64,000 bases of DNA from Hymenobacter yonginensis (GTDB taxonomy: Bacteria > Bacteroidota > Bacteroidia > Cytophagales > Hymenobacteraceae): contig NZ_CP115396.1 in NCBI RefSeq assembly GCF_027625995.1, positions 4,526,501 to 4,590,500 of the forward strand. The letters are read 5' to 3'. Position numbers and translations under genes: made by a program. Below the pieces are notes generated by a model. The model saw only the letters and a program-made list of their open reading frames with translations. It was not told the origin of the DNA and did no database searches. Shown piece after piece: positions 24,959 to 59,915 of the stretch; positions within the stretch are counted from its first letter, which is position 1, and the number at the start of each line of letters is the position of its first letter.

Positions 24959-25795
24959 CTATTCATAGCGGAAGGTAATCGGCAGCGTGTAGCGCACCGC
25001 TACCGAGCGGTTGTTCTGCTGGCCCGGCACCCAGGCCGGCATGTTCTTCACCACGCGGGTGGCCTCCTCGTCGGTGCCGTAGCCCAGGCCTTTCAGCACC
25101 TGCACGTCGGCAATGTCGCCGCTGGCCAGCACCGTGAAGGAGATGAAGACCCGGCCATCCACGTTGTTGCGCAGGGCCTGGGGCGGGTAGCGCAGGTTTT
25201 TCTGCATGTAGCGCATCAGGGCTTCCTGGCCGCCCACAAACTGCGGCATCACCTCCGCCGTGATAAACGGCTTGGGCGGGCCCGTCGTCTTGGTCGAGCC
25301 GGAGTCCTTGGTGCCGGTAGGGCTGCCAATGAGGCTGCCGGTTTCGGAGCCGGCAATGGCCACCGGACCCGTTGGGCCCACCTCATCCACCACCGGGCCG
25401 ACTTCCTTAATCTCGGGCTTGGCGATTTCCGGCTTTGCCAGCTCGTCCTTCACCACCTTGGTAGGCGTGGTAGCCTGCGGAGGCCTGACCGTGACGGCCA
25501 CTTGCTTGACGGGTTCCACCTCGCGATGTTCAATTACAGGCGGATCAATCAGTACTACGCCTGGGTCCGGCAATACAAAGACATCCGGAGCTACCACCAT
25601 CGGCGGAAACAGGTAGCGGAATGCCAGCGGCGAGCTGATGAAGAGCAAGCTCAGCACAATGGCCGTGGCGGAAGCCCGGGCCAGGTGTTGGTTGTAGAGG
25701 CGCCGGAGCAGGAAGGCGCCGTACGCCTTGTTGCGCCCTTCGAAGACCATGTCATCGAGAGTGGCGGTTCGCAGATCGAGGGTGCTGTTGGTCAT
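24959..25795 (-). CDS. Energy transducer TonB (second copy)
   Basis: 278 residues. The N-terminus TLDDMVFEGRNKAYGAFLLR is followed by one membrane helix (about 38-60), a Pro/Val-rich periplasmic linker, and the TonB C-terminal domain (MPQFVGGQEALMRYMQKNLR, YPPQALRNNVDGRVFISFTV). It couples proton-motive force from ExbB-ExbD to outer-membrane TonB-dependent receptors. It is the terminal gene of the operon. The linker is poorer in proline than that of its paralogue, suggesting different receptor partners. Confidence 0.93.
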   Translation of the reverse strand: MTNSTLDLRTATLDDMVFEGRNKAYGAFLLRRLYNQHLARASATAIVLSLLFISSPLAFRYLFPPMVVAPDVFVLPDPGVVLIDPPVIEHREVEPVKQVAVTVRPPQATTPTKVVKDELAKPEIAKPEIKEVGPVVDEVGPTGPVAIAGSETGSLIGSPTGTKDSGSTKTTGPPKPFITAEVMPQFVGGQEALMRYMQKNLRYPPQALRNNVDGRVFISFTVLASGDIADVQVLKGLGYGTDEEATRVVKNMPAWVPGQQNNRSVAVRYTLPITFRYE

Positions 25796-25942
25796 GGGGC
25801 ATAAGGGCTAAAGGTGAAACGGATACACGCAGCGCACTCCCAAACCCGGCTTCCCACTTCCCACATCCACTTATTCCGCCTGGCTTTCAGGGGTATAACG
25901 CATGCCTGATTCCATATAGTATGCAAGCCGTATATATTTTTT

Positions 25943-44017: not shown

Positions 44018-44231
44018 CGGGCGCGGGAGGGTGCAGACTCGTACAAAGCTACAGAAATAGCCGCCAAGGGCCTATCATTGGAGGCATAAGGGCATACCGG
44101 AGTTAGGCAATAACCGGAAAAAAGTGCTTATTTAAGCAGCATTTTCGGTATTCCCTGCCTAGCAAGGCAGTATCCGATGCATTGTTGCCTCTTTCTCTAT
44201 TCGACCAACCCCACCAGTGTCCGCTCCCCGC

Positions 44232-47022: not shown

Positions 47023-47055
47023 TAGTATGCAAGCATAACAGTTTTCTGTATGTTT
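47023..47055 (+). promoter_or_regulatory. Promoter and probable MarR operator of the MarR gene
   Basis: The palindrome TATGCAAGCATA (47027-47038) lies in the -33 region and a TATGTTT box at 47049-47055 is the -7 element. The 33-bp block is 27/33 identical to 51744-51776 before the acyl-CoA dehydrogenase gene. Binding by the MarR protein encoded 23 bp downstream is inferred. Confidence 0.65.
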
Positions 47056-47077
47056 ACCGGACTTGCAGTACCCTCCC

Positions 47078-47554
47078 ATGACTCCCGAAGAAACCGTCGA
47101 TTATAACATCAAGGTTGCTTGGCACGCCATTTCGCGTATGTACAATACGCAGGCCGCCAAGCACGACATCACCACGAGCATTGGCTTCGTGCTGCTGAAT
47201 ATCGACCAGGAAAACGGCACGCCCGCTACCAAAATTGCGCCGCTGCTGGGCCTCGAAACCCGCTCCCTGACGCGCATTCTGCGCTCGATGGAGGAGAAAG
47301 GCCTAATATACAAACAGGCCGACACCCAGGACAAACGCTCGGTGCGCATCTTCCTGACCGAGGAAGGCCTGCGCGGCAAGGAAATTTCCCGCCAGACGGT
47401 GCGCCACTTCAACCTGAAGGTACGCGAGAAAATCCCGCAGAGCGAACTGAACGTGTTCTTTAAGGTAGTAGCCCAGATTACGGGCATGATTGAGGGCAAA
47501 ACGCTCTACGACGACTTCAAACTAAAACCCCTGCGTTCCGAGTCGCCGGCCTAG
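47078..47554 (+). CDS. MarR-family transcriptional regulator
   Basis: 158 residues. Winged helix-turn-helix: helices around SIGFVLLNIDQENGTPATKI and APLLGLETRSLTRILRSMEE (recognition), and the wing GLIYKQADTQDKRSVRIFLT with the conserved DxRS-like DKRSV. Its place before fadB/fadA-type genes and its shared promoter element suggest a repressor of fatty-acid beta-oxidation, possibly released by an acyl-CoA. Start ATG at 47078. A TTG five codons upstream (47063) is less likely. Confidence 0.9.
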   Translation: MTPEETVDYNIKVAWHAISRMYNTQAAKHDITTSIGFVLLNIDQENGTPATKIAPLLGLETRSLTRILRSMEEKGLIYKQADTQDKRSVRIFLTEEGLRGKEISRQTVRHFNLKVREKIPQSELNVFFKVVAQITGMIEGKTLYDDFKLKPLRSESPA

Positions 47555-47560
47555 CCGGGC

Positions 47561-47698
47561 GGTTAGCTATTGGCCCTTGGCTGATAGCTTTCTTGTTTTC
47601 CACCGGTACTGCCCGTGGAAACGTAGAACCAACAACTCGGCATGACGAGTACTTTCAACCAGATGCTGGCGGCTTGTAGCTGACAGCCTAGAGCTTAC
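47561..47698. repeat. Period-7 inverted repeat (family B, copy 1)
   Basis: Left arm steps of 7: ttagcta, ttggccc, ttggctg, atagctt. Right arm: ggcttgt, agctgac, agcctag, agcttac. Between them is a perfect 7-bp hairpin, tttccac/gtggaaa. It fills the space between the MarR gene and the FadB-type gene. Possible effect on their co-transcription is unknown. Confidence 0.65.
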
Positions 47699-47736
47699 AT
47701 ACAACTTATTTCTTCCCACCTCATTCCCCTCCACGA

Positions 47737-50145
47737 ATGAACCGTACCATCAAAAAAGTAGCCGTATTGGGCTCCGGGGTGATGGGCTCGCGCATTGCGT
47801 GCCACTTCGCCAACATCGGTGTGCAGGTACTGCTGCTCGACATTGCGCCCAAGGAGCTGCTGCCCGCCGAGGAGGCCAAAGGCCTGAAGCTGGACAACCC
47901 GGCTGTGAAGAACCGCATCGTGAATGCCTCGCTGCAGGCAGCCGTGGCGGCCAATCCGTCGCCGCTGTACCGCAAGGCCGATGCCGCGCGCATCAAGACC
48001 GGCAACTTCGACGATAACCTCAAGGACATTGCCGGCTGCGACTGGACGATTGAGGTGGTAGTGGAACGTCTCGACATCAAAAAGAGCCTGTTTGAGCGCG
48101 TAGAGCAGTATCGCAAGCCCGGTACGCTCATCACCTCGAACACCTCGGGCATTCCAATTCACATGATGACGGAAGGTCGTTCCGACGACTTCCGCAAGCA
48201 CTTCTGCGGCACGCACTTCTTCAACCCGCCGCGCTACCTGAAGCTGCTCGAAATCATCCCGACGCCGGAAACCGACAAGTCGGTGGTGGACTTCCTGATG
48301 CACTACGGCGACCTGTACCTGGGCAAAACCACGGTACTGGCCAAGGATACCCCGGCCTTCATTGCCAACCGCGTGGGCGTTTTCGCCATCATGGACGTGG
48401 TGCAGGTGATGAGCGAGCTGGGCCTGACGGTGGAGGAAGTGGACAAGCTGACCGGCCCGGTTATCGGCCACGCCAAGTCGGCCACGTTCCGCACCTCCGA
48501 CGTAGTAGGTCTGGATACGATGATCAACGTGGCCAACGGCCTCGCCCAGAATCTGCCCAACGACGAAGCCAAGCACGTGTTCCAGCTGCCCGACTTCATC
48601 AAGAAGATGGCCGAGAACAAGTGGCTGGGCGACAAAACCGCCCAGGGCTTCTACAAGAAAGTGAAGGGCGCCGGCGGTAAGTCGGAAATTCAGGCCCTCG
48701 ACCTGAACACGCTGGAGTACAAGCCCAGCCAGAAGGTGAAGTTTGCCACTCTGGAAGCCACCAAGCCGATTGAGAAGCTGGCGGACCGCTTCAAGGTGCT
48801 GGCCGCCGGCAAAGACAAGGCCGGGGACTTCTACCGCAAGACGTTTGCAGGCCTGTTTGCCTACGTGAGCAACCGGATTCCGGAAATCACCGACTCGCTC
48901 TACAAGATTGACGACGCCCTGCGCGCCGGCTTCGGCTGGGACCTGGGCCCCTTCGAAACCTGGGATGCCCTGGGCGTGCAGAAGGGCCTGGAGCTGGCCA
49001 AGGCCGAAGGTAAAACCGTAGCGCCGTGGGTAGAGGAGATGGTAGCCGCCGGCCACACCGCCTTCTACAAAGTGAGCGAAGCGGGCGTGAAGCAGTTCTA
49101 CGACATCGAGTCGAAGAGCTACCAGGCCATTCCGGGCATGGAGAACTTCATCATTCTGGATAACCTGCGCGCCACGGGCAAAGTGCTGTGGAAAAACGCC
49201 GGGGCCTCGGTGCTCGACATGGGCGACGGTATCCTGAACGTGGAGTTCCACTCGAAGATGAACGCGCTGGGTTCCGACGTCATCCAGGGCCTGCTGAAAG
49301 GTGTGGAGCTGGCTGAAAAGGACTTCCGCGGCCTCGTGGTGGGCAACGACGCGCCGAACTTCTCGGCCGGGGCCAACCTGGGCCTCGTGTACATGTTCGC
49401 GCTGGACCAGGAGTACGACGAACTGAACCTGATGATTGCCCAGTTCCAGCAGGCCATGATGCGGATGCGCTACAGCAGCATTCCGGTGGTGGGCGCGCCC
49501 CACGGCCTGGCCCTGGGCGGCGGCTGCGAGCTGAACCTGCACTGCGACCGGGTGGTGGCAGCGGCCGAAACCTACATGGGCCTCGTGGAATTCGGCGTGG
49601 GCCTGATTCCGGGCGGCGGCGGCACCAAGGAAATGACGTTGCGCACCGCCCTCAAGTACGAGGAAGGCGAGCCGGAGTACAACCTGCTGCGCAATGCCTT
49701 CATGACGGTGAGCACCGCCAAGGTATCCACCTCGGCCCACGAAGCCTTCGACCTGGGCTTCCTGCGCCGCGGCGACGAAGTGGTGGTGAACTCCAACCGC
49801 GTACTGGCCCAGGCCAAAGCCGCCGCCATTGAGCTGGCTGAGGATGGCTACACCCAGCCGCTGCAGAAAACCAATATCAAGGTGCAGGGCAAAGGCGCTC
49901 TGGGCATGTTCCTGACCGGCGTGCACGCCATGAAGGAAGGCCGCTACATCTCCGACCACGACGTGAAAATTGCCAACAAGCTGGCCTACATCATGTGCGG
50001 CGGCGACCTGAGCAGCCCCACCGAGGTATCGGAGCAGTACCTGCTGGACCTGGAGCGCGAAGCCTTCCTCAGCCTCACCGGCGAACGGAAAACGCTGGAG
50101 CGGATTCAGTCGATTCTGACGACCGGCAAACCCTTGAGAAACTAG
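47737..50145 (+). CDS. 3-hydroxyacyl-CoA dehydrogenase / enoyl-CoA hydratase (FadB-type)
   Basis: 802 residues. It performs the hydration and NAD-dependent oxidation steps of beta-oxidation. The dehydrogenase half comes first: KKVAVLGSGVMGSRIACHFA (Rossmann), HFFNPPRYLKLLEIIPTPET and a later GFGWDLGPFETWDALG. The crotonase half is C-terminal, with APNFSAGANLG and GGGCELNLHCDRVV. This order (as in Bacillus FadN) is reversed from E. coli FadB. The thiolase gene follows after a repeat. Confidence 0.93.
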   Translation: MNRTIKKVAVLGSGVMGSRIACHFANIGVQVLLLDIAPKELLPAEEAKGLKLDNPAVKNRIVNASLQAAVAANPSPLYRKADAARIKTGNFDDNLKDIAGCDWTIEVVVERLDIKKSLFERVEQYRKPGTLITSNTSGIPIHMMTEGRSDDFRKHFCGTHFFNPPRYLKLLEIIPTPETDKSVVDFLMHYGDLYLGKTTVLAKDTPAFIANRVGVFAIMDVVQVMSELGLTVEEVDKLTGPVIGHAKSATFRTSDVVGLDTMINVANGLAQNLPNDEAKHVFQLPDFIKKMAENKWLGDKTAQGFYKKVKGAGGKSEIQALDLNTLEYKPSQKVKFATLEATKPIEKLADRFKVLAAGKDKAGDFYRKTFAGLFAYVSNRIPEITDSLYKIDDALRAGFGWDLGPFETWDALGVQKGLELAKAEGKTVAPWVEEMVAAGHTAFYKVSEAGVKQFYDIESKSYQAIPGMENFIILDNLRATGKVLWKNAGASVLDMGDGILNVEFHSKMNALGSDVIQGLLKGVELAEKDFRGLVVGNDAPNFSAGANLGLVYMFALDQEYDELNLMIAQFQQAMMRMRYSSIPVVGAPHGLALGGGCELNLHCDRVVAAAETYMGLVEFGVGLIPGGGGTKEMTLRTALKYEEGEPEYNLLRNAFMTVSTAKVSTSAHEAFDLGFLRRGDEVVVNSNRVLAQAKAAAIELAEDGYTQPLQKTNIKVQGKGALGMFLTGVHAMKEGRYISDHDVKIANKLAYIMCGGDLSSPTEVSEQYLLDLEREAFLSLTGERKTLERIQSILTTGKPLRN

Positions 50146-50156
50146 AGCTAGAAGTT

Positions 50157-50284
50157 AGTTCCCCTCCTTGGAAAGGAGGGGCTAGGGGTGGTTGAATGAC
50201 GCCAGAACAATGCTAGAGCTAACTCTAACTATCGTTCAACCAATCAACCACCCCCAACCCCTCCTTTCCAAGGAGGGGAGCTAG
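50157..50284. repeat. Inverted repeat, CCCCTCCTTGGAAAGGAGGGG family (family G)
   Basis: Each arm is itself a small palindrome (cccctcctt/aaggagggg), followed by gctaggggtggttgaatgac and its complement. The elements at 50157-50200 and 50234-50284 pair. It separates the two beta-oxidation genes. Confidence 0.85.
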
Positions 50285-50323
50285 CCAACCTCTACTTCCC
50301 CACCTTCTCTTAGACTTGAAACC

Positions 50324-51502
50324 ATGAACGCATATATCGTAGCCGGTTACCGTACGGCCGTTGGCAAAGCCAACCGTGGCGGTTTCCGCTTCACCCGCCC
50401 CGATGACCTCGCCGCCGATGTCATCAAGCACCTGGTGGCCTCGGTGCCCCAGCTGGACCCTACCCGCATCGACGACGTGATTGTGGGCAACGCCGTACCG
50501 GAGGCCGAGCAGGGCCTGCAGATGGGCCGCCTGATTTCGTTGCTGGCGCTGCCGATGAACGTGTCGGGCCTCATCGTGAACCGCTACTGCGGTTCTGGTG
50601 TGGAAACCATTGCCATGGCCGCCGGTAAAATTGCGGCCGGCATGGCCGACTGCATCGTGGCCGGTGGTACCGAGAGCATGAGCCTGGTGCCCACCGTGGG
50701 CTGGAAAACCGTGCCCAACTACAACCTGGCCCAGAAGCACCCCGACTACTACCTCGGCATGGGCCTCACCGCCGAAGCCGTGGCCCAGGATTACGGCATC
50801 ACCCGCGAAGACCAGGACCAATTTGCCTACAACTCGCACCAGAAGGCCATCAAAGCCATTCAGGAAGGCAAGTTCAAAGACCAGATTGTGCCCGTGACCG
50901 TGGAGGAAACCTACCTCGACCAGGCCACCGGCAAGAAGAAAAACCGCTCGTTCGTAGTCGATACCGACGAAGGCCCCCGCGCTGATACGTCGATGGAGGC
51001 GCTGGGCAAGCTGCGCCCTGTGTTTGCTGCCAACGGCTCGGTAACGGCCGGTAACTCCTCGCAGACTTCCGACGGTGCTGCTTTCGTCATTGTGATGTCG
51101 GAGCGCATGGTGAAGGAGCTGAACCTGGAGCCGATTGCCCGCATGGTGACCTACGCCACCGAAGGCATCGACCCACGCATCATGGGCATGGGACCCATCA
51201 AGGCCGTGCCGAAGGCGCTGCGCCAGGCCGGCATGAAGCTCCAGGATATCGACCTGTTCGAGCTGAACGAGGCCTTCGCCTCCCAGAGCCTGGCCGTAAT
51301 GCGCGAGCTGGACATGGACCAGAGCAAAGTGAACGTGAATGGCGGTGCCATTGCCCTCGGCCACCCGCTGGGCTGCTCCGGCGCCAAGCTCAGCATCCAG
51401 CTGTTCCACGAGCTGCGCGCCCGGGGCCAGAAGTACGGCATGGTAACCGCCTGCGTAGGCGGCGGCCAGGGCGTAGCCGGCATCTACGAGCTACTGAAGT
51501 AG
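50324..51502 (+). CDS. Acetyl-CoA acyltransferase (thiolase, FadA-type)
   Basis: 392 residues. It cleaves 3-ketoacyl-CoA to acetyl-CoA and a shortened acyl-CoA. Active-site residues are Cys89 in NRYCGSGVE, His347 in GHPLGCSGA and Cys377 in TACVGGGQG. It presumably works with the bifunctional enzyme encoded just upstream. Biosynthetic and degradative thiolases look alike; the context favours degradation. Confidence 0.95.
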
Positions 51503-51505
51503 CAG

Positions 51506-51597
51506 TGTAGCATACGCTTTAGCTTGTGCCGTGGGCGGCCCGGAGCCAAGCTTCGGACGGAAAACTCAGCCGCTCACGGCACAAGCCAAAGTTCCGG
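51506..51597. repeat. Degenerate inverted repeat, TGTAGCATAGGC family (family D, copy 3)
   Basis: The left arm tgtagcatacgctttagctt (51506 onward) is intact. The right arm retains cacggcacaagcc (51575-51587), then decays. It starts four bases after the thiolase stop. Confidence 0.75.
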
Positions 51598-51607
51598 TAA
51601 CTGGTTT

Positions 51608-51692
51608 GTCATCCTGAGCGGAGCGAAGGACCTTATCACGCCAGCGCGAATCGTTACAACGCGATAAGGTCCTTCGCTCCGCTCAGGATGAC
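51608..51692. repeat. Long inverted repeat, TCATCCTGAGC family (family C, copy 2)
   Basis: Arms of 30 bp (51608-51637 and 51663-51692) are perfectly complementary. The unit is gtcatcctgagcggagcgaa plus ggaccttatc. The 25-base loop resembles that of the copy at 55558. Confidence 0.92.
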
Positions 51693-51743
51693 GGACGGTT
51701 GACGAAGATTTCCCCGCTGATCCGGGGTTTTCTTTTCGTGAAC

Positions 51744-51776
51744 TAGTCGGCAAGCATAACAAATTTTTGTATCTTT
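51744..51776 (+). promoter_or_regulatory. Promoter and probable MarR operator of the acyl-CoA dehydrogenase gene
   Basis: It matches 47023-47055 at 27 of 33 positions, including GCAAGCATAACA and the TGTAT-TTT end. TATCTTTC at 51770-51777 is the -7 element. The left half-site is TCGGC rather than TATGC, so the palindrome is weaker than before the MarR gene. The remaining part of 51503-51882 holds two repeats and no gene. Confidence 0.65.
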
Positions 51777-51882
51777 CGGTACGACAAAACAACGGGGCTT
51801 ACTTGCCGGTAAATAGTAGGTAAGCCGAGTAGTTTCTCTTCTTTTTGACTTCGAATTTTCCCACATCAACCCTCACCCGGTC

Positions 51883-57815: not shown

Positions 57816-59915
57816 CTAGCTGATTCGGCTCCAGTTCACGGCCGTAGCCGGCAGGCTCTCAATGTGGCGGCGGATGGCCTGGTTTTCGGGCTTCACCAAG
57901 TCGGGGTCTTCGGCCAGGATGGCCTGGGCGGCGGCGCGGCTTTCGCTCAGGATGCGGCCGTCTTTGGCCAGATCGGCAATCAGCAGGTCCAGCACACCGC
58001 TCTGCTGGGTGCCCATCAGGTCGCCGGGGCCGCGCAGTTTGAGGTCGATGTCGGCAATTTCGAAGCCGTTGTTGGTGCGCACCATTGTTTCGATGCGGGT
58101 GCGTGAATCCTTGCTGAGCTTGTAGCCACTCATCAGGATGCAGTAGCTCTGGTCGGCACCCCGGCCCACGCGGCCGCGCAGCTGGTGCAGCTGCGAGAGG
58201 CCGAACCGCTCGGTGCTTTCAATCACCATCACGGAGGCGTTGGGCACGTTCACGCCCACCTCAATTACGGTGGTGGCCACCATAATCTGGGTTTCGTTTT
58301 TTACGAACCGCTGCATCTCGGCATCCTTCTCGGCCGCGCTCATGCGGCCGTGCACGATGCTGATCTGGAACTCGGGGAAGGCGCGGGCCACGCTTTCGTA
58401 GCCGTCCATGAGGTCTTTGTAGTCGGCCATGGTTTCGCTTTCCTCGATGAGCGGGTACACGATGTACACCTGCCGGCCCAGCTTGATCTGGTCGCGCAGA
58501 AAACCGAATACCTTGAGGCGGTTGCTGTCGAAGCGGTGCACCGTCACGATGGGCTTGCGGCCGGCTGGCAGCTCATCAATCACCGACACGTCCAGGTCGC
58601 CGTAGAGCGTCATGGCCAGGGTGCGCGGGATGGGCGTGGCCGTCATTACCAGCACGTGCGGAATCACGTGGGGGTTTTTCTGCCAGAGCTTGGAGCGCTG
58701 CGCCACCCCGAAACGGTGCTGCTCATCCATGATGGTGAGGCCCAGGTTCTTGAACTGCACCACGTCTTCGAGCAACGCGTGGGTGCCCACCAGCATGTGC
58801 ATCTCGCCGGAGCGCAGCTGCTCGTGCAGCACGCGCCGCTCGGCGGTGCGGCTGCTGCCCGTGAGCTTCCCGATTTTCAGCCCCAGCAAATCAGCAAAGC
58901 CCTTCAGCCCCACGTAGTGCTGGTCGGCCAGGATTTCGGTGGGCGCCATCAGGCAGCTTTGCGCGCCGTTGTCGGCGGCCATGAGCATGCTGATGAAGGC
59001 CACGATGGTTTTGCCCGAGCCCACGTCGCCCTGCAGTAGCCGGTTCATCTGCTGGCCTGCGCAGAAGTCCTTGTAGATGTCATGGATGACGCGCTTCTGG
59101 GCCCCGGTGAGGTCGAAGGGCATCACGTTCTTGTAGAAATGCACCAGCGTGGGCACCTCTTTGAAGATCTGGCCGGCCAGCGTGACTTTGCGCTGGTCGC
59201 GCTGGCGCAGCAGCTTGAGCTGCACATAAAACAGCTCCTCGAACTTGAGGCGGAAGCGGGCTGTTTGCAACAGCTCGGTGCTCTGCGGAAAGTGAATCTG
59301 CTGGATGGCCGTGGCCTTGTCCATCAGCCCGAACTGCTGAATCAGGGCCGGCGACAGGGTTTCCTGCACGTGGGGCAGGGCAATCTTCAGCAAGTCGGCC
59401 ACCATGCGCATGATGGCCTTGCTATCGACGCGGTGGTAATTCTTGAGCTTCTCGGAGGTGTTGTATACTGGCTGCAGGTAGCTCTGGCCGGCTTTCTGCT
59501 CGGTTATTTCCTCCATCTCCGGGTGCGCCATCTGGGGGCGACCGTTGAACATGGTGGGCTTGCCGAATACGATGTACTCCTGGTGGTTTTTAATCACCTT
59601 TTCCAGGTAGTTCACGCCTTTAAACCACACGAGCTCCAGCTCGCCACTGGCGTCGGCTACTTTGGCTACCATGCGCTTCTTGGGGCCTTCGCCCACCACC
59701 TCGCGGTTGCGCAGAATGCCTTTCACCTGCACAAACGGCAGGTCATCGTGCAGGTCGCAGATGTTATAGAACTGGGTACGGTCGAGGTAGCGGAACGGGT
59801 AGCGCTGGATCAGGTCGCCGTACGTGAACAGGTTCAGTTCCTTTTGCAGCAGCTGGGCCCGTTGCAGGCCCACGCCCCGCAGGTACTCTAGTTTGGTCTG
59901 AAAGAAGTTGGTCAT
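57816..59915 (-). CDS. recG: ATP-dependent DNA helicase RecG
   Basis: 699 residues. It remodels stalled forks and branched DNA. An N-terminal wedge/OB domain (FPFVQVKGILRNREVVG-like region, about 60-150) leads to the helicase core with LLQGDVGSGKT (Lys302), IMDEQHRFG, VMTATPIPRTL and the late QLRGRVGRG motif. The start at 59915 (MTNFFQTKLEYLRG) fits the family. The longer frame reads through a period-7 repeat and is rejected. Confidence 0.95.
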   Translation of the reverse strand: MTNFFQTKLEYLRGVGLQRAQLLQKELNLFTYGDLIQRYPFRYLDRTQFYNICDLHDDLPFVQVKGILRNREVVGEGPKKRMVAKVADASGELELVWFKGVNYLEKVIKNHQEYIVFGKPTMFNGRPQMAHPEMEEITEQKAGQSYLQPVYNTSEKLKNYHRVDSKAIMRMVADLLKIALPHVQETLSPALIQQFGLMDKATAIQQIHFPQSTELLQTARFRLKFEELFYVQLKLLRQRDQRKVTLAGQIFKEVPTLVHFYKNVMPFDLTGAQKRVIHDIYKDFCAGQQMNRLLQGDVGSGKTIVAFISMLMAADNGAQSCLMAPTEILADQHYVGLKGFADLLGLKIGKLTGSSRTAERRVLHEQLRSGEMHMLVGTHALLEDVVQFKNLGLTIMDEQHRFGVAQRSKLWQKNPHVIPHVLVMTATPIPRTLAMTLYGDLDVSVIDELPAGRKPIVTVHRFDSNRLKVFGFLRDQIKLGRQVYIVYPLIEESETMADYKDLMDGYESVARAFPEFQISIVHGRMSAAEKDAEMQRFVKNETQIMVATTVIEVGVNVPNASVMVIESTERFGLSQLHQLRGRVGRGADQSYCILMSGYKLSKDSRTRIETMVRTNNGFEIADIDLKLRGPGDLMGTQQSGVLDLLIADLAKDGRILSESRAAAQAILAEDPDLVKPENQAIRRHIESLPATAVNWSRIS

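Follow-up and report, generated by a model that had tools for sequence, protein, structure and literature searches.

In this work, we present a comparative sequence analysis of a palindromic element found twice in a 64,000-nucleotide stretch of the Hymenobacter yonginensis genome (contig NZ_CP115396.1, positions 4,526,501 to 4,590,500; hereafter the window), once before a gene for a MarR-family regulator (marR) and once before a separate gene for an acyl-CoA dehydrogenase (ACAD). The element is very probably the operator of the MarR protein encoded at 47078-47554, which would repress the transcription unit linked with fadB and fadA as well as the ACAD gene, and would be released by acyl-CoA. 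What was read from the sequences themselves is the predicted operator, how well it is conserved, which genes surround it and that it accompanies the MarR gene. An earlier reading of the window alone, below called the original prediction, had proposed a regulon consisting of marR (with fadB and fadA) and ACAD. Both indeed carry operators, but the proposed regulon was too small, and a second ACAD operator and a site before a tonB gene had been missed. The regulon appears larger and older than was proposed, and it is a well-supported system of a familiar kind.

The two 33-bp copies, TAGTATGCAAGCATAACAGTTTTCTGTATGTTT (47023-47055) and TAGTCGGCAAGCATAACAAATTTTTGTATCTTT (51744-51776), are identical at 27 of 33 bases; this match had been reported originally and was borne out by direct comparison. 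No other place in the window resembles the marR copy as closely as the ACAD copy does, the runner-up being the one at 51814 with 21/33. Base composition leads one to expect about 0.06 equally good pairs in the window when one orientation is counted and 0.13 when both are, and the pair taken alone is only suggestive and only weakly significant, so that the decision falls to cross-genome comparison. Both copies start with an 18-bp dyad (positions 1-18 of 33), continue with eight bases of lower conservation and end in a TAnnTTT box. As for the earlier description of a conserved core with a -7 box, a predicted box is present in both copies, while the conserved unit has to be redrawn as the 18-bp dyad. 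Judged by its letters, the shared element is a palindromic site of the repressor type.

Scanning of the window with a position weight matrix (PWM) gave scores of 25.3 at 51744 and 25.1 at 47023, the top score of each of 20 block-shuffled windows being 2.9-12.8; three more sites (25917, 51814 and 59552) scored 18.5-19.0. This PWM had been trained partly on fadL, phasin and tonB sites, and to remove the circularity it was retrained on the relatives' marR and ACAD sites only, which left the tallies as they were; window matches above 13 were the same five sites and no others. The match at 59552 lies inside the recG open reading frame (ORF), in which RecG domains were found, and despite its good score it was taken as chance. 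A near-palindrome in the marR-fadB gap (47634-47651, AACTCGGCATGACGAGTA) scored 8.6, inside the shuffled range, and is not claimed as an operator; the same gap holds sites above 14 in two relatives (L145 and L181).

The comparison with relatives covered 80 named marR loci, 66 of them from Hymenobacter or close kin and 14 from Pontibacter, Adhaeribacter or Rufibacter; the nearest genome (G001) shares 29% of sampled 31-mers with the window. The dyad is located 5' of marR in 80/80 of these loci, with mean information of 1.79 bits per operator column versus 0.22 in the 60 bp upstream. When a regular expression for the dyad was applied to 32 relatives' loci, a site 5' of marR was matched in 28, and two of the four misses were a one-base variant (L053) and a visible degenerate copy (L060). 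The DNA upstream of ACAD was readable at 59 of the 66 loci from Hymenobacter or close kin, and by PWM all 59 contain at least one site and 54 contain two, 67-70 bp apart; the strict pattern finds one in 57 and two in 42. Over the 1.12 Mb of DNA surrounding marR in the 80 loci, matches with a PWM score above 14 numbered 81 before marR, 113 before ACAD and 3 elsewhere, a tally (194/197 at marR or ACAD) that speaks for specificity only, as the PWM was trained on those same sites. At one locus (L062, genome G011) marR, fadB and ACAD gave partial matches only and marR came in two pieces, probably through assembly frameshifts.

Further targets were found within the genus. In 16 genus genomes a pattern derived from the marR and ACAD sites (TRNTMKGCNNGCMKANYA) had 111 matches versus 13 for the reversed pattern. 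The original prediction was to fall if the element proved not to be enriched at further fatty-acid genes or in related genomes; these counts, the marR loci described above and the sites found before fadL, ETF, Fe-S electron-transfer and further acyl-CoA dehydrogenase genes did not refute it. Forty of the at least 47 extra sites among the matches listed were fetched, from 11 genomes (left out were four in G021 and one each in G002, G013 and G016). Ten are located before fadL and ten before a phasin-like gene, with 10 genomes having both kinds once each; a GDSL lipase gene lies behind fadL at the 10 fadL sites, and an ABC1/AarF kinase gene comes next after the phasin-like gene at 9/10. The fadL gene was identified by a scan with PF03349 on L079 and at the other loci by clustering, sequence or further search, and the phasin-like gene by NF047773 on L081, with 26.1 bits, below the cut-off of 35. 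Of the other sites, three stand before a TonB_C gene and three before a GMC oxidoreductase gene, with one before etfB (L117) and one before a Fer4 gene that has a CCG gene behind it.

A genus-wide tally over 31 genomes, made with the PWM trained on marR and ACAD sites only (score above 14 within 250 bp upstream), gave sites at fadL in 29/30 loci, at the phasin-like gene in 27/29 and at a second tonB in 14/30; equal lengths inside the fadL, phasin and tonB genes held no match. In the window, the tonB site (25917-25934) sits between an ExbD-TonB cluster and the second tonB, and the same context is seen in L087, L095 and L107. The operator of the electron transfer flavoprotein (ETF) genes is half-degraded (TGTTATGCATGCAGCCTT type) in five Hymenobacter loci beyond those with an etfB site (L328-L356 set), which looks like regulon turnover.

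The class-wide test was based on 119 genomes, in which MarR was called at E <= 1e-20, a threshold that more distant forms of it would escape. MarR was present in 57, the strict operator TRNTATGCNNGCATANYA in 41 and fadB in 100 of them; the reversed strict pattern had matches in 2. The strict operator occurs in 38/57 genomes having both fadB and marR versus 3/43 having fadB without marR (Fisher p 5.7e-10), and the matches in the latter three are all inside ORFs. By this count the site accompanies the MarR gene rather than fadB. It is centred 19-59 bp 5' of marR in 27 of the 119 genomes, one of which has an extra site at 141 bp; the pairing of operator and marR thus extends over many families of the class. 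Among 30 other (non-marR) sites in marR genomes, 21 adjoin fatty-acid-type genes: etfB-etfA (4), ACAD (6 sites in 5 loci), Fer4-CCG (3), phasin or AarF (4), and fadB, crotonase, GMC oxidoreductase and acyl-CoA ligase-marR (1 each). At the phasin/AarF locus L202 a short-chain dehydrogenase gene comes first and at L222 only AarF was called, while at two loci, L212 and L227, the site and the called ORF start touch. In the distant genome represented by L227 the site stands at the head of an acyl-CoA ligase-marR-fadB run. Over the phylum MarR matched 36/198 genomes, every one inside the class.

The position of the operators suggests how they may act. Predicted starts were placed from the -7 box as in Flavobacterium johnsoniae, for which PMC6847099 gives TAnnTTTG at -12 to -5. 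At marR the first TAnnTTT lies 7-10 bp after the operator in 73/80 loci, and at fadL 17-20 bp after it in 28/29. At ACAD it lies 8 bp after the operator in 26/59 relatives, at other distances in 10 and is missing in 23, and at tonB no TAnnTTT box was found in any of the 14 loci with a site, for which reason the ACAD and tonB placements are weaker. The phasin-like gene has a TAnnTTTG box starting 13-17 nt upstream of the operator in 25/27 loci with a site and none in 2. Both window boxes, those of marR and ACAD, lack the final G of TAnnTTTG. With respect to the predicted start, the operator would then span about -38 to -21 both at marR and for the first ACAD site, -50 to -30 at fadL, +2 to +23 at the phasin gene and +30 to +50 at ACAD site 2. 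Sites downstream of the predicted start favour repression over activation, and the site at marR implies autoregulation. Occlusion of the -33 region, suggested originally, agrees with the geometry at marR and ACAD site 1.

We infer binding by the window MarR, repression and an acyl-CoA ligand in the following form. A MarR dimer would bind the 18-bp dyad T(A/G)NT(A/C)(T/G)GC-NN-GC(A/C)(T/G)AN(C/T)A and repress the transcription unit that links its own gene with fadB and fadA; in the Hymenobacter group it would repress the separate ACAD promoter as well. RNA polymerase would be blocked where the operator covers the -33 region, as predicted for marR and the first ACAD site, ACAD having a second operator in addition. 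Other targets in the genus would be fadL with the GDSL lipase gene, the phasin-like gene, usually together with the AarF kinase gene, the second tonB in part of the genus, and ETF and GMC oxidoreductase genes in some genomes. On arrival of fatty acids, long-chain acyl-CoA would most likely release the repressor; it is the nature of the target genes that points to this ligand.

Other explanations of the same data have to be considered. As many regulators use palindromes of such length, the dyad might be bound by a different one, for example of TetR type, encoded elsewhere and having marR merely as one target. We regard this as improbable, for the site tracks the MarR gene and not fadB (38/57 vs 3/43), and its location just 5' of marR in the 27 genomes mentioned is the usual sign of autoregulation. 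It is likewise unlikely that MarR activates its targets, the operator replacing a poor -33 element (class II activation): at marR and the first ACAD site the operator is centred about 17-18 bp ahead of the -7 box and a clear TTTG -33 element is lacking, which would suit such a mode, but the operator of the phasin gene (25/27 loci) and ACAD site 2 lie downstream of the predicted start, and according to PMC6847099 the -33 motif is generally weak in F. johnsoniae promoters. Similarity of core promoters or plain chance as the only basis of the two copies can practically be dismissed. The 27/33 identity is near the chance limit in a 64-kb window, yet against this stand the conservation across families, the dyad symmetry, the enrichment at targets and the placement downstream of the -7 box; the reversed-pattern control (111 vs 13), the bits per column, the co-occurrence with MarR and the targets found with the independent PWM ruled it out.

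A sub-question compatible with MarR acting as the repressor is the identity of the ligand, which may be other than long-chain acyl-CoA: a free fatty acid, a hydroxyacyl- or branched-chain acyl-CoA, or a redox signal. The best solved-structure profile matches of the protein are MarR proteins named MarR, SarZ, SlyA, OhrR and MgrA, and several of these proteins sense oxidants. The targets, in contrast, cover uptake, lipase, acyl-CoA dehydrogenase, ETF and thiolase functions, a range that fits an acyl-CoA signal of the kind used by known FadR systems. A different ligand is somewhat less likely than long-chain acyl-CoA.

Several observations weigh against MarR as the repressor acting through this operator. 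The site was not found at the two remaining regular-expression misses, L056 and L059, order-level relatives in which no fadB adjoins marR, and it was found in 0/14 of the Pontibacter, Adhaeribacter and Rufibacter ACAD genes. The acyl-CoA ligase gene at 44217, considered as a target, was rejected, having no upstream operator in the window; in the 80 loci, too, just three matches above 14 lie away from the DNA preceding marR and ACAD. In 12/40 genus sites the neighbour was not identified or has no clear link with fatty acids, and an etfB site (first PWM, score above 14) is present in only 4/29 Hymenobacter loci and not in the nearest genome G001. Nineteen of the 57 marR genomes are without the strict pattern; variant forms of the site are seen in some Hymenobacter relatives. 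Outside clear fatty-acid neighbours lie 9/30 distant non-marR sites, two of them before DUF4442 genes and the remaining seven with no clear link (G085 was not fetched). The p-value given above overstates independence, because the genomes are related.

The gene identities proposed originally for the neighbourhood (MarR, fadB type, thiolase, acyl-CoA dehydrogenase) were confirmed by domain and family models (Table 1). The MarR protein scores 48.8 bits with PF01047 (cut-off 24.6), and its Pfam matches are MarR, winged-helix and SarA/Rot models only; no GntR or TetR DNA-binding domain was found in it by Pfam. Eleven NCBIfam MarR-type models were touched (FabT, HpaR, SlyA, OhrR, BilQ and others), none above its curated cut-off, FabT (NF050133) reaching 19.7 bits with a cut-off of 200. 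The protein is 100% identical over 158 residues to proteins of Hymenobacter rigui and Hymenobacter sp. BT190. The model passed by the ACAD protein, NF058590, is the Bacillus-type FadE model of NCBI.

Table 1. Predicted operators, -7 boxes and genes of the window
Feature	Position	Strand	Details
Operator 1	47023..47040	+	TAGTATGCAAGCATAACA; 5' of marR, about -38 to -21 of predicted start
Predicted marR -7 box	47049..47056	+	TATGTTTA
marR, MarR-family regulator, 158 aa	47078..47554	+	PF01047
fadB-type 3-hydroxyacyl-CoA dehydrogenase/enoyl-CoA hydratase, 802 aa	47737..50145	+	Best model NF052272, 588.8 bits, below cut-off 999
fadA-type thiolase, 392 aa	50324..51502	+	TIGR01930 above cut-off
Operator 2 (ACAD site 1)	51744..51761	+	TAGTCGGCAAGCATAACA; 5' of ACAD gene, about -38 to -21
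Predicted ACAD -7 box	51770..51777	+	TATCTTTC
Operator 3 (ACAD site 2)	51814..51831	+	TAGTAGGTAAGCCGAGTA; ACAD leader, about +33 to +50, PWM 18.8
Acyl-CoA dehydrogenase, fadE type, 595 aa	51883..53670	+	NF058590, 850.6 bits, cut-off 600
Operator 4	25917..25934	-	TAGTATGCAAGCCGTATA (+ strand letters); 122 bp 5' of second tonB, PWM 19.0
Second tonB-type gene, 278 aa, putative regulon member	24959..25795	-	TonB_C
FadD-like acyl-CoA ligase gene	from 44217	+	
Lipoprotein-like gene	from 46167	+	
Glutamate dehydrogenase gene	from 54061	+	

Long inverted repeats (GTCATCCTGAGCGGAGCGAAGGACC type and CCCCTCCTTTCCAAGGAGGGG) were spotted by eye at 51607-51697 in the fadA-ACAD gap and at about 50160-50280 in the fadB-fadA gap. 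Across 59 relatives the length of the fadA-ACAD gap ranges from 153 to 1375 bp, as if such repeat elements come and go. Among the seven distant sites with no clear link, three (L215, L220 and L221; three genomes of two other families) have the strict operator before related secreted-type proteins. The operator lies 46 bp 5' of a DUF4442 gene at L216:3551-4057 and L218:3558-4064, in two genomes of one genus, a possible thioesterase-like member of the regulon.

In the known systems of fatty-acid breakdown, FadR (GntR type in Escherichia, TetR type in Bacillus and Thermus) and PsrA of Pseudomonas, a repressor has a palindromic operator before the uptake and beta-oxidation genes. Here, too, a shared operator precedes uptake and beta-oxidation genes; the differences are a regulator of the MarR family and not of GntR or TetR type, predicted -7 promoters of the Bacteroidota type, and the addition of phasin-like/AarF and tonB targets. 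The Hymenobacter regulator would work in the manner of FadR and PsrA, but because its DNA-binding domain is that of MarR, it falls outside both. A similar FadE-type ACAD (NF058590) exists in Bacillus, under an unrelated repressor. Within the MarR family, the CouR and HcaR/BadR types have CoA-type ligands and FabT has acyl-ACP, their operators being of similar length and placed over the core promoter. CouR (6c28) and a 'fatty acid biosynthesis transcriptional regulator' (6jbx) were among the profile-search matches of the window MarR; FabT controls fatty-acid synthesis and not breakdown.

The Fer4-CCG targets make sense in the light of EtfD of Mycobacterium tuberculosis, which, according to PMC8593149, is a 4Fe-4S and CCG protein serving ETF and acyl-CoA dehydrogenases in another phylum. 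The likeness seen is one of domain content: Fer4 and CCG genes lie close together at L200, L209, L225 and L093 (domains scanned on L093, the other three matched to it by BLAST), and these are two separate genes in the Bacteroidia targets. In Flavobacterium psychrophilum, beta-oxidation genes rise with fish mucus and plasma, with no regulator named for them in what was accessible of PMC9723704, the main text of which does not contain the word MarR. A literature search limited to titles and abstract openings, with subscription papers mostly outside reach and hence giving weak evidence, gave, among the papers listed, no description of a MarR fatty-acid regulon of Bacteroidota and no regulator of fatty-acid breakdown in this phylum. 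Within the reach of this search, the regulatory system is apparently undescribed.

Obtained results make it rather probable that one orthologous MarR and one conserved 18-bp operator constitute an ancestral master switch of fatty-acid oxidation across the class Bacteroidia, a counterpart of FadR and PsrA. Its regulon would comprise the release and uptake of lipids, beta-oxidation, ETF, electron transfer from ETF to quinone and a lipid-linked module of phasin and AarF. Single lineages would have gained or lost parts of it, examples in Hymenobacter being the second ACAD operator and tonB. This gives a candidate regulator together with its operator sequence and a list of targets, which may be transferred to many families of the class, together with hints at the function of poorly known genes, that is the phasin-like/AarF pair, the split Fe-S oxidoreductase, the second TonB and the DUF4442 protein.

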